In this document: one piece after another, positions 57,247 through 64,000 of the stretch
How positions within the stretch are numbered: position 1 is the first letter of the stretch
Layout of the letters: every line of letters begins with the position of its first letter
NCBI GenBank assembly: GCA_000308255.3
Contig: HG326668.1
Span: 1-64,000, forward strand
Length of the DNA: 64,000 nucleotides
Source of the DNA: Anaerococcus pacaensis 9403502
GTDB lineage: Bacteria; Bacillota; Clostridia; Tissierellales; Peptoniphilaceae
Direction of reading: 5' to 3'
Made by a program: the position numbers and the translations under genes
Notes under the pieces: model-generated
Told to the model about the DNA's origin: nothing
What the model saw: only the letters and a program-made list of their open reading frames with translations
Database searches by the model: none

Positions 57247-57795
57247 CTAAAGATATATAAGATTATGGATTCCAAATTTACGGAAGTCATCTTTATTGTG
57301 GCTAACTAGAACAATAGATTTGTATCTGTCTAGTAAAACTTCTATAGCCTTATCTTTATTCTCTTCATCTATGCCAGTGAAAGGTTCATCCATAACGAGT
57401 ATGTCCCCATCATATAGATAGGCTCTGGCAAGGGCCACCCTTCTTTTCATACCTCCACTAAATTCGGATAATTTCTTGTCATAATCACTTATATTAAAAA
57501 GATTAAGCGATCTTATGGCCTTATTTTTATCATCTGTTATCATAAGCAGATTTTCTATTGCAGATATCTCATCTATTAGTCTATTTTCTTGAAAAACTAC
57601 TGCAGACTTTGAAAAGCTTGTTATAATCTCGCCCTGATCGGCCTTTTCTAAACCTAGAATTAGATTGATAATAGTAGACTTGCCAATCCCAGATTCACCA
57701 AAGATGCCTAGAGACTCACCTTGATTTATTTTAAAACTTAAATCATTTATCACTTTTTTATCATAGGCCTTGCACACATTTCTAAATTCAATCAT
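57247..57795 (-). CDS. ABC importer ATP-binding protein (NitT/TauT type)
   Basis: 182 aa, short for an ATPase of this kind. Walker A GESGIGKST, signature EFSGGMKRRVALARA and MDEPFTGIDEE. The start used is the ATG three codons into the longest frame, with AGGTGG upstream; the gene overlaps the permease. It powers the importer formed by the permease and lipoprotein upstream. Confidence 0.86.
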   Translation of the reverse strand: MIEFRNVCKAYDKKVINDLSFKINQGESLGIFGESGIGKSTIINLILGLEKADQGEIITSFSKSAVVFQENRLIDEISAIENLLMITDDKNKAIRSLNLFNISDYDKKLSEFSGGMKRRVALARAYLYDGDILVMDEPFTGIDEENKDKAIEVLLDRYKSIVLVSHNKDDFRKFGIHNLIYL

Positions 57796-58525
57796 GATTT
57801 CCACCTAATACCAATCTTAATAACTTCTCAAATCCCATTGATAATATCAGTATTGATAAAGTCCAAGCCATCAGTGCTGGCATATCGAGGTAGACTTTGG
57901 AATTGTATAAGTTTTTCCCAATTGAATTTGCCGGCAGGCCTATAACCTCAGCTGCTACTCCCGCTTTAAAAACAAGGCCAGATACTGTGATGATGCTTGA
58001 AGTTAAAAATGGCCTTACTTTTATCCCGTAAATATAGTGTAGCTTCTTTCTTTCAGTTATTTGATAGACCTCAGCCATTTGGATTAGCTTTTTATCAATG
58101 CTTATTAGGCCCGTATAGACATTGGTGTAGATAATAGGCATAGCCATTATAAAAGCGACATATACGGATAGGTTCTCTGACTTTATCCAAAATAAAAGCA
58201 GAATCGTAAGGCTTGCTATAGGTACAGATTTAAATATGAGTATTATCGGTCTTATAAATTCGTAAAACAACTGATATTTATAGCTAAAATATGCAAATAC
58301 TAGGGCAATTAAGATAGCTAGTCCAAAGCCCAATATTATTTTAAAACTAGTAGATAATATGCTTATATAAAAGTCTTTGGTTCCTAGGAGATTAATAAAT
58401 TTCTCCAATACAAGAAGAGGAGATGGCAATAGTATCTCCTCTTTTATAAGCATGGCTAAAATTTGCCAAATGATTAGCCAAATTAAGCCTATTATAAATT
58501 TTTTATTTGCTGTAGTAGAAGTCAT
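57788..58525 (-). CDS. ABC importer permease (NitT/TauT type)
   Basis: 245 aa, six hydrophobic helices and the coupling loop GVAAEVIGLPANSIGKNL. Permeases of this class import sulfonates, nitrate, thiamin precursors or similar. The gene overlaps the binding-protein gene by 23 bases. Confidence 0.85.
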   Translation of the reverse strand: MTSTTANKKFIIGLIWLIIWQILAMLIKEEILLPSPLLVLEKFINLLGTKDFYISILSTSFKIILGFGLAILIALVFAYFSYKYQLFYEFIRPIILIFKSVPIASLTILLLFWIKSENLSVYVAFIMAMPIIYTNVYTGLISIDKKLIQMAEVYQITERKKLHYIYGIKVRPFLTSSIITVSGLVFKAGVAAEVIGLPANSIGKNLYNSKVYLDMPALMAWTLSILILSMGFEKLLRLVLGGNHD

Positions 58526-59609
58526 CTTCTGGTAATATTCCGCCTACCAATTGTGGATCAGCTGCAAATAGGCTACCTAGGTAAGTAGATAGGTCTTCTT
58601 TAAGCTCCTCTCCATCTTCGTAGTGGAGGGCAAGTTTTGGTAGGGCTTTTTTAGCAACTGGTTCTGGCATGACTTCATATTTGCCTAGTAGGGCTGCAGT
58701 GTCATCTACATCATTAAGAGCTGCATCAATTGAACTCTTGTACTCTTCTAGAAGCGCATCCACATCGATTTGGTCTAAATATTCATCACGACCTACTAAT
58801 ACAGCGGTGATAAGTGGGCCACCTGTTGATTCTTTGTATAATTCATTTACATCAAGGACTACTGATGCATCTTCTCTATTCATTAAAACATTGGTAACCA
58901 TTGGCTCTGGGAGTAGAGCAACACTTGCTTCACCTGCTATGAGTTTTTGAGCTACTTCACTTGCTTCAGATAAGTATTCAATATTAGCCTCAGCTGGGTC
59001 AAAGCCTGATGTAGTTAGGATTTGATTGATAGCTACCTCTGGTGTGGCTCCCTTGCCTGATGCATAGATAGTTTCACCACTATTTACTAGGTCTTCTATG
59101 CTAGTGATAGTTGGTTCACCAGTTTGAACAATGTAGAGCACACCTAGGTTATTGGTGGCTAGGACACTGATATTGCCTTCTGTTTTGTTATATAAAGTTG
59201 CTGCTAAGTTTGCAGGGATAATAGCAAGGTCTGCTTCCCCTGATACTAGCTTTGGTACTACCGCATCTGGTGCGCCTTCTACTGATTCAGTGAAACTAAA
59301 TACTGTGTCTTCGCCTTTTGATTTTTCTATCATATTGATAGCGCCAGCGCTAGTAGGGCCTGATAGCATAGCTATATTTGCTTCATAATGGGCCTCATTA
59401 CTATCAGCGACATCATCTTTTTCTTCTTCACTTGCTTCTTCAGCTACTTCCTCTTTAGCTTTCCCTTCATTAGTCGTAGGCTCTGCTACTTCTTCTGCAC
59501 TTTCTTCTACAACAGTTGCTTGTTCTTCTGCAGTAGTATTAGCATCATTTCCACAAGCAATTAGCCCTAAACTAAGTAGGGCTAATAAAGATATATTTTT
59601 AATTTTCAT
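58503..59609 (-). CDS. Substrate-binding lipoprotein, NMT1/SsuA-like
   Basis: 368 aa. Lipoprotein signal with lipobox LIAC (Cys19), then an acidic Glu/Ala-rich linker of about 50 residues, then a periplasmic-binding fold: AGAINMIEKSKGE, VVPKLVSGEADLAIIPANLA, GAGTATPEV-like loop (ASGKGATPEV). This resembles NMT1/SsuA binding proteins for pyrimidine precursors, sulfonates or similar. The ligand cannot be told. It lies 33 bases after the 52-codon ORF, sharing its promoter. Confidence 0.83.
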   Translation of the reverse strand: MKIKNISLLALLSLGLIACGNDANTTAEEQATVVEESAEEVAEPTTNEGKAKEEVAEEASEEEKDDVADSNEAHYEANIAMLSGPTSAGAINMIEKSKGEDTVFSFTESVEGAPDAVVPKLVSGEADLAIIPANLAATLYNKTEGNISVLATNNLGVLYIVQTGEPTITSIEDLVNSGETIYASGKGATPEVAINQILTTSGFDPAEANIEYLSEASEVAQKLIAGEASVALLPEPMVTNVLMNREDASVVLDVNELYKESTGGPLITAVLVGRDEYLDQIDVDALLEEYKSSIDAALNDVDDTAALLGKYEVMPEPVAKKALPKLALHYEDGEELKEDLSTYLGSLFAADPQLVGGILPEDDFYYSK

Positions 59610-60046: not shown

Positions 60047-62332
60047 TTATTCACTTAATGTAAGTGCATTAATTTGATCAGCAACACCCCAGACTGGAGT
60101 AACTATGTCAAATCCTTGTACTCTATTTGAATATGCTGTGAAAGCTTGGCTAGAATATAGAGGAATTTCTGGTAGATAATCATTGTACCATTTTTGGAAT
60201 TCTTCCCATTTATCTAAGTAGCCTTCTTTATCATCTGGATCTGTTTGACGAAGTTCAACTGTGATTCTATCGACTTCAGGATCATTTGTTCTGGTAGAAT
60301 TGTCAAATCCATCAGAGTGATAATAATAGTATGGATCAAATGACATAGGGAATCCTGAACCCATGTTAAAAGCTGTATATTCTGCGTCTTCTTTAGGATT
60401 ATGGTAGAACTCTAAAAGGGTAGCCCATGCACCTTGTTGTACATTGTATTCCATACCAGCTTGTTTAGCATTGTTAGGAAGTTGATTTGAAATAAGGGTA
60501 GTGATCTTGGACTCTTCATAGCCATATTGATTGACTACAAGCTGGTTGCCCTCTTCATCATATCTCCAGTAGTCAAAGCCCTCTGGATTTGATTCGAACA
60601 TTTCATTCGCTTTATCCCTATCCCATGGAGTAGTACCATCTGCTTCAAATTTATATGGAGTTTCATCTAGTAGTTCATTAGCCTTATCAATATTAAGTTG
60701 GTAATTAGTAAATTCTGGGTCGCGTTCTAAATCCGCTCCTCTTTCTTGATACATCCATTGACTTATGCCATACATACCGTTGATTACTACACCATAACCA
60801 CCAACAGTTGATTGTACGAATGTATTTCTATCCATTAAGTGAGCTATTGCTTGACGTACTTGTTTGTATTTTGTAGCACCTTTATCTGTTAAAAAGCTAA
60901 TATTACTATAAGCATTTTGCTCAAAACTATTGAATTGTAGCTTTCCTTCATCAGCTGCTGCTTTGATTTGGCTAATTGCATCACTATTTGATTCATCTTC
61001 CCATACATCGATTTTACCATTTTCGATTAGGTCAATTGCTATACTTGGATTTACAACTTGTAGTACTACGTGAGGGATAGTTGCTTTATCGCCTCTAAAA
61101 TTACCAGCATAATTAGGATTTAGGGAAAGCTTAACTATGTTGTTTTCATAGCTATCTAATACATAAGGTCCATCTACCACAGTAGGATTTAGTCTGTATT
61201 CATTCGCTTGATTAAGCATAGCTTGTTCTATTAACTGTTGAGTAGGATCGATATCTCCTTCTAAGCGACTTTCAAGATATGCTATATCTTCCTCATGCTC
61301 TACTTTAGCTTCTTTGTACTCTTCGATTTCATCTTCATCTGCATCCTCTTCCGGCTCTGGATAATATTCATCAAAGGTTTCATTGGCTACTTCGATTTGA
61401 GTCTTAATGGAATCATGAAAGGCTGCAATTTCTTCTTTAGTTGGTTCGTAACCTTCCTTAGCTACAAGTTTATTACCTTCTTCATTAACAGTTAGCTTAT
61501 CGCTTATAGCGTGAATAGGAAATGGTCTTGTAAAATATAAAGATTCTTCTTCAAAGTAAGGTAAAAATGAAGAATCGAGTGTAATTGAAAACTCATTATC
61601 AGACACCCTAGCTTGACCTTCTAGGTAATCTAGGTCTCCATTATGGTATTCTTCATAGCCCTTTCGTGAATCAGGACCAAAAGTTGTAGATCCTGTTACA
61701 GGTACATATGATGGGTGTGAATAAAGTAGAGCTGGAAATAAATAATCATCCACAGTTACAGGTTCTCCATCTGACCATTTTAATCCGTCATTAATTGTAA
61801 ATGTAATTGTTTTTGAACCATCTTCATTCAGAGTAGTTTCTGGTTCTTTAGCAAGAACAACTGGGTTATTTACCCATTGACCATTTTCATCTTGAACTGT
61901 AGTAACGTATCCATTAACACCTGATATCCCGAGAAAATTACGTACATTTACATCTGTAGAAGATTCTGTCCAACCCTCTAAGAAATCACCATTAAATTCA
62001 CCAGATCCTATTACTAATCTATCGGAACTAGTTACATCCTCGAAATTATCTAATTCTTGCTGGTCTTCTTCATTTAAATCTGCGCCAATATCATTACTTT
62101 CATCTGTGTCTGTACCACTTGTATCAGCGTCTTCTGTATCAGTGTCATCGTTTACATCCGTATCTACGTCATTAGATTCTGTAGCTGCATCATCAGTTAT
62201 TTCTGTTTGTACAGTTGTATCCGCACTATCACTAGCATTGTTGCCTGGTTCGTTTGTATTTCCAGAGCAAGCTGATAGAGTTACTGATAAACTTAGAGCC
62301 ATCAAAGATGAAAAAATTTTTTTAATTTTCAT
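60047..62332 (-). CDS. OppA-like oligopeptide-binding lipoprotein
   Basis: 761 aa, larger than the usual 540-600. Lipobox LSAC (Cys22). Residues 23-115 are an acidic, Asp/Thr/Ser-rich low-complexity linker, probably a wall-spanning spacer. The SBP_bac_5 domain follows: GLKWSDGEPVTVDDYLFP, AIAHLMDRNTF, and GMEYNVQQGAW. An insertion around 290-340 is rich in Glu and likely coiled. It binds peptides for the downstream permease system. The RBS GGAGG stands seven bases before the ATG, with the promoter at 62384-62412. It lies close downstream of the RCC1-permease gene, so they probably work together. Confidence 0.88.
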   Translation of the reverse strand: MKIKKIFSSLMALSLSVTLSACSGNTNEPGNNASDSADTTVQTEITDDAATESNDVDTDVNDDTDTEDADTSGTDTDESNDIGADLNEEDQQELDNFEDVTSSDRLVIGSGEFNGDFLEGWTESSTDVNVRNFLGISGVNGYVTTVQDENGQWVNNPVVLAKEPETTLNEDGSKTITFTINDGLKWSDGEPVTVDDYLFPALLYSHPSYVPVTGSTTFGPDSRKGYEEYHNGDLDYLEGQARVSDNEFSITLDSSFLPYFEEESLYFTRPFPIHAISDKLTVNEEGNKLVAKEGYEPTKEEIAAFHDSIKTQIEVANETFDEYYPEPEEDADEDEIEEYKEAKVEHEEDIAYLESRLEGDIDPTQQLIEQAMLNQANEYRLNPTVVDGPYVLDSYENNIVKLSLNPNYAGNFRGDKATIPHVVLQVVNPSIAIDLIENGKIDVWEDESNSDAISQIKAAADEGKLQFNSFEQNAYSNISFLTDKGATKYKQVRQAIAHLMDRNTFVQSTVGGYGVVINGMYGISQWMYQERGADLERDPEFTNYQLNIDKANELLDETPYKFEADGTTPWDRDKANEMFESNPEGFDYWRYDEEGNQLVVNQYGYEESKITTLISNQLPNNAKQAGMEYNVQQGAWATLLEFYHNPKEDAEYTAFNMGSGFPMSFDPYYYYHSDGFDNSTRTNDPEVDRITVELRQTDPDDKEGYLDKWEEFQKWYNDYLPEIPLYSSQAFTAYSNRVQGFDIVTPVWGVADQINALTLSE

Positions 62333-62621: not shown

Positions 62622-62641
62622 ATAAAAGGCATACTTGCCTT
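62622..62641 (-). terminator. Weak terminator of the RCC1-OppC gene
   Basis: AAGGCA/TGCCTT stem with a four-base loop, then a T-rich tail. The stop codon lies in the stem. Confidence 0.6.
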
Positions 62642-64000
62642 ATCTCTCAGTTACTCTCGGGTCGATAGCATCTCTTAAAGCATCACCAATAAGGTTTATA
62701 GAAAATGATACTAAGAAAATCGCAAGGACTGGAAATACCCATCTCCACCAGTAGAACTTAAGTACATATGAACTTTGAGCAGCAGTTAGCATATTACCCC
62801 ATGATGGCGTAGGTTCTTGGACACCGAACCCTAAAAATGACAGACCAGATTCAGAAAGAAGATTTCCAGCGTATTCTAAAGTTGCATCTACTATTATTAA
62901 AGGCATGATATTGGGTAATATATGGTTGGTTACAATCTTAGAATTTTTTACTCCAAGAGCTCGGGCAGCTGTGATGTAATCACGCTCACGCTCAGAGAGA
63001 ATCTGAGCTCGTACTAAACGAGCAAGTCCTGTCCAGCCAAGTAAACCTAGTAGAACCATTACCAAAGTAATTCGCTCTGTTTGGCTAGCTCCAGGGGGTA
63101 GTAAAGCTGATAGAGAAATAAGCATTGGGTAGAATGGGAATGATGAAATAATTTCTGACATTCTCATCAAAATATTGTCCACACGGCCGCCTGCAAATCC
63201 AGATATCATACCTATAGTTACACCAAGCACTACTGTAAAAATTGTTGATATTAAGGATATAATCATTGAAATACGACCACCGTGGATTAATCTAGTAAAG
63301 ATGTCACGTCCTTGGTCATCAGAACCAAATCTAAATCCATCTAATCCCCAAGTATCTATTTTTGCATTTTCTTTTACTGCATAGTTATTAAAGTATGAAG
63401 TATAAACTTTTTTATATTCACCCTTTGGGCTCTTTAATTCTCCGTAGTTATCCTTACCCCACGAATAAATCTTACCTTTTTCATCAAGGGCTGTGAAAGT
63501 GGTTTCTCCAGCATTGATATCCACTATTGGAGCTTCGAATTCTGGTATGCTATTGCCTGATCTTGATGGTCCCCAAGCAATAACTTCACCTTTGTCTGTG
63601 AGAACTGCCGCACTATCGGAAGTAAGAGCTACATCAGTTACAAATACCGATCCATCTTGTACTTCTTCTGGCATAGCTGTTTCATTCTCAGCACCCATTA
63701 CTCCTAAAAGCTCAACTGTACCGTCAGTTTTGGCAACTAGAATATTAATAGCTGATGTATCAAAACTAGTCACTTCACCTTGAACTGTAGATGGTATGAG
63801 ATCAAGTCTACTTGCTAGAGTTGAGCCCCAAATTAAAATGTTATTTTCGTTGGTAAGTACTACTGAATATTGAACACCTGCTCCAAGTTCTTTGATACCC
63901 TCGCTTCTAATTTGACTTTCTGCAATTGGAGGCATTTGAGTTTGATCGAAAGAATTATTACCCCAGCCATAGATTTCATTATCTTCTGTAGCAACTATAA
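62640..64000 (-). CDS. OppC/DppC-type permease with RCC1-like repeats (5' end outside window)
   Basis: At least 453 codons, open to the window edge. An in-frame ATG lies at 63935, but upstream codons continue the same repeat (EIYGWGNNSFDQ), so the true start is beyond 64000. The N-terminal part seen is a series of RCC1-type repeats with the G-x-(V/I)-x-x-W-G core: NNILIWG, GEVIAWG, GKIYSWGKDNYGEL. The C-terminal 230 residues are an OppC-type permease: FGSDDQGRDIFTRLIHGG, then five membrane helices and the EAA loop TAARALGVKNSK. In ordinary OppC the first helix lies well before this block, so the repeats probably form an outer-face insertion between helix 1 and the rest. Confidence 0.87.
   Translation of the reverse strand, partial: IVATEDNEIYGWGNNSFDQTQMPPIAESQIRSEGIKELGAGVQYSVVLTNENNILIWGSTLASRLDLIPSTVQGEVTSFDTSAINILVAKTDGTVELLGVMGAENETAMPEEVQDGSVFVTDVALTSDSAAVLTDKGEVIAWGPSRSGNSIPEFEAPIVDINAGETTFTALDEKGKIYSWGKDNYGELKSPKGEYKKVYTSYFNNYAVKENAKIDTWGLDGFRFGSDDQGRDIFTRLIHGGRISMIISLISTIFTVVLGVTIGMISGFAGGRVDNILMRMSEIISSFPFYPMLISLSALLPPGASQTERITLVMVLLGLLGWTGLARLVRAQILSERERDYITAARALGVKNSKIVTNHILPNIMPLIIVDATLEYAGNLLSESGLSFLGFGVQEPTPSWGNMLTAAQSSYVLKFYWWRWVFPVLAIFLVSFSINLIGDALRDAIDPRVTER

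Follow-up and report, generated by a model that had tools for sequence, protein, structure and literature searches.

Anaerobic Firmicutes that ferment protein on skin and in gut and rumen are fed by peptide importers, which also carry signal peptides and some antibiotics. To our knowledge, the solved Opp and Dpp importers are built on plain permeases. The closest described systems, E. coli OppBCDF (8z21) and DppABCDF (8z1y) and M. tuberculosis OppABCD (8j5s), have in common with the present locus an OppC protein composed of OppC_N and BPD_transp_1 and a cassette with OppA, OppB, OppD and OppF. As opposed to them, the locus carries about 290 propeller residues between TM1 and TM2 of OppC and a helical insertion in OppF. 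Its OppC, OppB and OppA had their best NCBIfam matches in the Opp4 families (Opp4C is NF045476), albeit below the cut-offs (306.6 of 350, 290.4 of 450 and 137.2 of 650 bits, respectively); identity as an Opp4C equivalog was therefore rejected.

The P2 domain of MalF occupies a different loop and has a different fold from the OppC propeller. It is, likewise, a folded outer domain set into a loop of a type I importer's permease, and, according to the consulted part of PMC3150292, P2 touches the maltose-binding protein MalE. With the BLIP-II/RCC1 propellers, the ring shares the RCC1 repeats and the seven blades, but BLIP-II is a free secreted inhibitor, whereas the ring described here is built into a membrane transporter. 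A survey of beta-propellers names an RCC1/BLIPII group, and its main text contains neither "permease" nor "transporter" (PMC9218822). Among open-licence PubMed Central papers, no published description of an RCC1 propeller in OppC was found. Database entries pairing RCC1 and OppC domains may well exist, so the claim of novelty is limited to the absence of a description in that literature.

Extent and predicted fold of the propeller permease

The window, meaning the whole stretch of DNA analyzed, comprises bases 1–64000 of the 190,558-base contig C6. The permease gene lies on the minus strand and runs over the window edge: positions 62640–64000 hold residues 210–661 and the stop codon as one open frame with Pfam matches, without TM1, blade 1 and the first part of blade 2. 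Sequence beyond position 64000, which the sequence-only reading had asked for, placed the start codon 625 bases past the window edge and completed the gene (C6 62640–64625, 661 aa, no internal stop), and helix 1 indeed precedes the repeats. The protein is ordered as a cytoplasmic N-terminus, TM1, a seven-bladed propeller and the remaining permease. The propeller takes up residues from about 144 to 432 (C6 63330–64196, minus strand; the window part, 63330–64000, holds most of blade 2 and the whole of blades 3 to 7), as delimited by Pfam RCC1_2, RCC1 and WD40_RLD matches, the structural model described below and blade limits drawn by eye. The permease part after it (62640–63329, minus strand) begins at GSDDQGRD and comprises TM2 and everything up to the C-terminus, by BPD_transp_1 and alignment with E. 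coli OppC, and contains RERDYITAARALGVKN, which we take to be the coupling-helix stretch.

Pfam domains of both kinds were found in this single frame, just as the sequence-only reading had claimed for RCC1 repeats running into OppC. OppC_N matched at residues 82–134 (E 3.2e-10, 40.2 bits against a cut-off of 23.9) and BPD_transp_1 at 468–659 (E 4.7e-35, 121.4 bits against 26.4), which together make up an OppC-type permease. RCC1_2 matched in five stretches (E 3e-34, 116.4 bits against 22) and RCC1 at 383–397 (E 5.7e-6), the two spanning about residues 140–400, so a domain search did recover the RCC1/propeller similarity on which that reading depended. In phmmer comparisons with PDB sequences, OppC/DppC chains matched about residues 430–658, and BLIP-II, UVR8 and HERC2 matched parts of 127–400. 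The RCC1/OppC fusion is one intact gene, with matches far above chance. Two genes or a frameshift are ruled out by the single 661-aa frame, free of any stop or start between repeats and permease, and by the like architecture across the genus, and an assembly chimera by a paralogue on a second contig and by many independent genomes.

The insert splits by eye into seven repeats of 28–54 residues. A model of a 659-aa orthologue from Anaerococcus sp. Marseille-Q5996 (L058), built from an 18-sequence alignment (mean pLDDT 75.1, pTM 0.55), has a helix at 93–115 (TM1), seven three-stranded meanders at 148–425 and then the other helices; with a pTM of 0.55, it does not fix how the ring sits relative to the membrane. 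The best structural match of the ring was BLIP-II (1jtd B; Z 28.9, 256 aligned residues, rmsd 2.3), and residues 78–654 aligned with E. coli OppC (8z21 B; Z 28.7, 270 aligned residues, rmsd 2.8), the propeller appearing as an extra loop between TM1 and TM2. In this predicted structure the protein is a whole OppC, with TM1 before the insert and the other helices after it, and with a complete, closed ring of seven blades in the TM1–TM2 loop. The earlier notion of a run of repeats of about 40 residues was correct as to the RCC1 repeats but not as to an open run, the predicted form being a whole seven-blade ring. Every blade ends in WG or a similar pair, and the segment ahead of blade 1 resembles the inter-blade linkers; the N-terminal segment therefore probably closes the last blade, whereby both chain ends would exit close together. 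Blade-specific residues are conserved in 19 diverse rows of the alignment.

The insertion site is the outer loop, which, as the sequence-only reading had it, is short in ordinary OppC. In propeller-less proteins such as L080–L082, TM1 leads into a linker of about 30 residues, which ends in NQPPS-(S/R/K)EH-(L/K)-(L/M)GTDE, and the propeller proteins have at that place N-(I/V)-(P/A)PG, the ring and TWGLKG-LLGTD. From this comparison of motifs, the ring appears to have entered between PP(S/G) and GTD of the former linker. Two further OppC proteins of 609 and 585 aa (L019:8558–10387, minus strand; L020:168–1925, plus strand) carry in the same loop an insert of another kind, about 280 residues long, in which neither a Pfam domain nor RCC1 repeats were found. 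The OppF beside them (342 and 321 aa) is without insertion, and the OppA at L019 has 779 aa. The TM1–TM2 loop of OppC thus looks like a repeated landing site. At two other loci (L021:3569–6501 and L022:3810–6743), both permeases have N-terminal additions, OppB being 469 aa and OppC 502 aa long, with OppC_N only at 227–277.

Distribution and ancestry of the propeller cassettes

The propeller OppC is present in all 31 genomes of the genus, the one analyzed here included, with a match that begins at or before residue 70 and extends to residue 661; in one of them (G025) the protein is identical to the OppC of Anaerococcus sp. Marseille-Q5996. Across the order, the insert profile matched in 64 of 249 genomes and 23 of 92 genera, one of these matches (G226) being only partial, at a contig end; within its own family the trait is patchy. 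Only matches reaching the junction at model position 312 were accepted in the wider samples, and such matches running through the junction were present in 17 of 391 genomes of the class and 14 of 398 of the phylum. Other RCC1 proteins, short of the junction, were set aside in 10 of the 27 matching class-sample genomes and 14 of the 28 matching phylum-sample genomes. A named scan gave at least 22 loci, at least 20 with the propeller (L058–L077), among the matches listed. These included Anaerococcus, Falcatimonas and Clostridium sp. Cult1, metagenome-assembled Solobacterium, Lachnospiraceae, Ruminococcaceae, Erysipelotrichaceae and others, and one such genome labelled Anaerolineaceae; two propeller-less loci among the same matches were ordinary alphaproteobacterial OppC. 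The proposed survey of Firmicutes for the same architecture was hence positive at the levels of genus, order, class and phylum. The protein is no oddity of a single gene, as first supposed, but belongs to a widespread Opp subfamily, whose OppF carries a further insertion on the cytosolic side.

A tree of the permease part with 60 rows placed the 34 propeller OppC in one clade (100/99). Nearest to it were propeller-less OppC such as L080–L082 (joint fork 90/92). Five loci (L023, L058, L011, L064 and L067) were left out as copies or fragments, and L021 was left out as well; the place of L019 is meaningless, being that of a fragment with 15% of the columns. As far as the tree of aligned sequences goes, it shows a single origin of the propeller OppC. 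Four ordinary OppC genes were flagged for an in-frame TAG; in both of those opened, it was the normal terminal stop.

The cassette order is OppA, OppB, OppC with the propeller, OppD and OppF, and a paralogous cassette on contig C1 of the same genome, as well as the complete relatives examined, holds OppA, B, D and F around the OppC gene. Genome G195 has two propeller cassettes in tandem (L102:4515–19000, minus strand).

In the OppA tree, all 41 rows from propeller cassettes formed one clade (100/100) against 27 others, which shows co-inheritance of the cassettes with one OppA clade; loci L006–L016 and L028–L057 and proteins under 400 aa were omitted from this tree. The clade members have 582–802 aa (median 661; the 582-aa one is cut by a contig start), compared with 509–588 aa in 26 of the 27 others. 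The remaining one is the 779-aa protein at L019, beside the OppC with the large insert of another kind. A large OppC loop and a large OppA coincide, then, in two lineages, which fits a docking role of the loop but amounts to two events only. The OppA-like lipoprotein of the window (60047–62332, minus strand, 307 bases downstream of OppC; 761 aa, SBP_bac_5) belongs to the propeller-cassette clade. This protein and two other Anaerococcus OppA (L004:3027–5246 and L004:5604–7898) have an acidic N-terminal linker and, before the second lobe, a charged helical stretch or hairpin of some 60–80 residues; both features, which account for the length of the Anaerococcus OppA, are missing from the aligned OppA of other lineages.

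The OppF insertion and the possible role of the ring

The OppF of propeller cassettes carries a helical insertion of about 160–195 residues between Walker A and the Q-loop. By alignment, the 163–193 extra residues share a single site, downstream of the YYG strand and ahead of the Q-loop, and the ends of the stretch are conserved. Where OppF is whole, it has 472–579 aa in these cassettes, against 255–391 aa beside the propeller-less OppC opened; this range was taken without L070, split by an unread base, and L108 (375 aa, an inner start, perhaps a frameshift). The OppF of L058 is an ABC ATPase with an oligo_HPY tail (ABC_tran 95.5 bits, oligo_HPY 80.4 bits), and no Pfam family covers the insertion. 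Its model (pLDDT 72.2, pTM 0.72) has long helices at 102–124, 129–162, 166–200 and 215–245, and its best structural match was 8z21 chain D (Z 29.9), presumably OppF. Fold searches with the whole OppF returned lists filled by the ABC domain, in which no relative of the bundle alone was seen.

Within the order, a profile of the insertion matched 63 of the 64 genomes with a propeller and none of the 185 others (Fisher P 7.5e-59, related genomes not being independent). The sole exception (G207) is explained by a 3,494-base contig that ends inside OppD, before OppF. In a class sample of 382 genomes, drawn separately from the set of 391 used for the propeller, there were 21 matches, 17 of them strong; the other four (E 9e-7 to 6e-6) cover only part of the insert, in frames whose lengths differ, and were set aside. 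Around one of these four (L114), no Opp protein lies within 5 kb. One genome (G735) has a strong OppF insertion and no propeller match; its 3,742-base contig ends inside OppD, so it says nothing on the pairing. These counts show a near-perfect pairing of the OppC propeller with the OppF insertion. In E. coli, DppC contacts and pairs with DppF, and DppB with DppD, according to the accessible part of PMC12136057; by this analogy, both additions would lie on the same half of the transporter.

In ten pairs, the dN/dS of the propeller was 0.07–0.19 and that of the permease part 0.014–0.085, with dS close to saturation in many of them; these ratios show purifying selection on the propeller. In a mirror-tree test with 23 cassettes (4 of the 27 gathered were dropped, since the motif pattern did not fit), the partial correlations of the propeller were 0.29 with OppB and 0.26 with both the OppF insert and the OppF core. 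With OppA the value was -0.01, without sign of special co-evolution, and docking thus gained no support from co-evolution in this weak test. The mean distance was 2.08 for the OppF insert and 0.39 for the OppF core, and the propeller evolves at about the pace of OppA and faster than the permease.

Since the ring would sit at the pore mouth and the cassettes have their own OppA lineage, docking of OppA is the simplest reading. The locus may accordingly encode a distinct Opp importer, whose extracellular propeller holds OppA at the mouth of the translocator and whose OppF bundle matches the ATPase to it; we favor this tentatively, at somewhat short of an even chance. The propeller would lie above the pore mouth on the OppC side, and one face of the ring would grip the enlarged OppA over the OppB/OppC gate, as BLIP-II does with its protein partner. 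Loaded OppA would thereby be captured or kept docked, the task that falls to MalF-P2 in maltose import, and the OppF bundle, on the same half, might adjust or report ATPase activity to match. The clade and size of OppA, the outer-loop location and the BLIP-II likeness of the ring count in favor. Against it stand the mirror-tree value for OppA, a propeller evolving as fast as OppA itself, and OppA extensions that, among the lineages aligned, are confined to Anaerococcus. Moreover, in Dpp/Opp importers of the ordinary kind, which lack such a domain, a scoop motif of OppB docks OppA, as stated in the consulted part of PMC12136057, and in Dpp the scoop does so alone. Of the roles put forward in the sequence-only reading, a docking ring is therefore the one favored here as well, on indirect evidence; the analysis turned up nothing in favor of a wall-spanning sleeve or a phage receptor.

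The pairing of propeller and OppF bundle can also be read as regulation rather than docking. The ring and the bundle might form one regulatory unit, in which the ring senses a state outside the cell, be it of OppA, peptide, wall or lipid, and the insertion in OppF is a brake or a binding site for a cytosolic protein; MalK, which has a regulatory part, would be the model for such an insertion. The occurrence of the two together in 63 of 64 genomes, apart only where a contig end explains it, speaks for this reading, as do the confident prediction of the bundle as long helices within the ATPase, the correlation of 0.26 between propeller and OppF insert, and the location on two subunits whose E. 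coli Dpp counterparts pair (PMC12136057, in the part consulted). The high variability of the insert (2.08 against 0.39 for the core) is odd for a precise switch, and in G091–G093 and G229–G231 it was matched only as two separate pieces. We regard a regulatory unit as possible but doubtful. Comparably doubtful is a two-sided importer, in which the outer propeller and the inner bundle, jointly gained once and never separated, would form a signaling axis through one half of the transporter: the ring would sense docked OppA or the state of the wall, and either the ATPase or a cytosolic partner, e.g., a peptidase, would receive this signal through the bundle. If this were true, peptide uptake and breakdown would be coupled, in a class of regulated importers absent from the E. 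coli and mycobacterial structures.

It is unlikely, though worth weighing, that the propeller binds a partner other than OppA outside the cell, be it the wall, a neighboring surface protein or a secreted peptidase that feeds peptides. RCC1/BLIP-II rings do bind proteins, and the group is mostly bacterial, as given in the accessible part of PMC9218822. Genes for M3 oligoendopeptidases lie beside some cassettes: among neighbors chosen by eye, three exceeded the curated cut-off (L060:74–1789, L063:498–2216 and L074:526–2247) and one fell below it (L069:8777–10579). However, many cassettes are without an M3 peptidase in the neighborhood listing. In addition, M3 oligoendopeptidases are usually cytosolic, which counts against a secreted one. 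Least credible, and in our judgment very improbable, is a tolerated passenger, i.e., a single entry into an exposed loop without a function of its own. The closeness of the chain ends would make the insertion cheap, and the propeller evolves faster than the permease, but its retention in all 31 genomes of the genus and across classes, the low dN/dS, the conserved blade-specific residues and the strict pairing with the OppF insertion are at variance with it.

Whichever function applies, the propeller subfamily is a natural system for studying what keeps a binding protein at the gate and whether the outer and inner additions communicate. The propeller in OppC and the insertion in OppF together provide a sequence handle for annotation, as profile libraries register these genes only as separate domains.

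The copy in the window and its neighbors

The OppB gene (340 aa) lies outside the window, at C6 64627–65649, one base upstream of the OppC start. The paralogue on C1 has an OppC of like architecture, 77% identical, and the two OppC are sister rows in the tree (99/95), with end branches of 0.12 for the window copy and 0.013 for C1; among the 31 genomes of the genus, only this one has two copies of propeller OppC. Its single OppF with the insertion is at C1. Around the window copy, 19 kb were examined, and apart from a PstB-like ATPase neither OppD nor OppF was found there; RERDYITAARALGVKN is kept in both OppC copies. On these grounds, the window copy is probably an extra OppB-OppC-OppA set that borrows OppD and OppF from the main cassette at C1. 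Its putative substrate would be peptides, as suggested by the family and by the M3 peptidases neighboring some cassettes. Adjoining the OppA gene, positions 57247–59609 (minus strand) hold a small ABC importer set of an ATPase, a permease and a binding lipoprotein, which, judged by eye from the sequence, looks like the nitrate/sulfonate/thiamine-precursor type.
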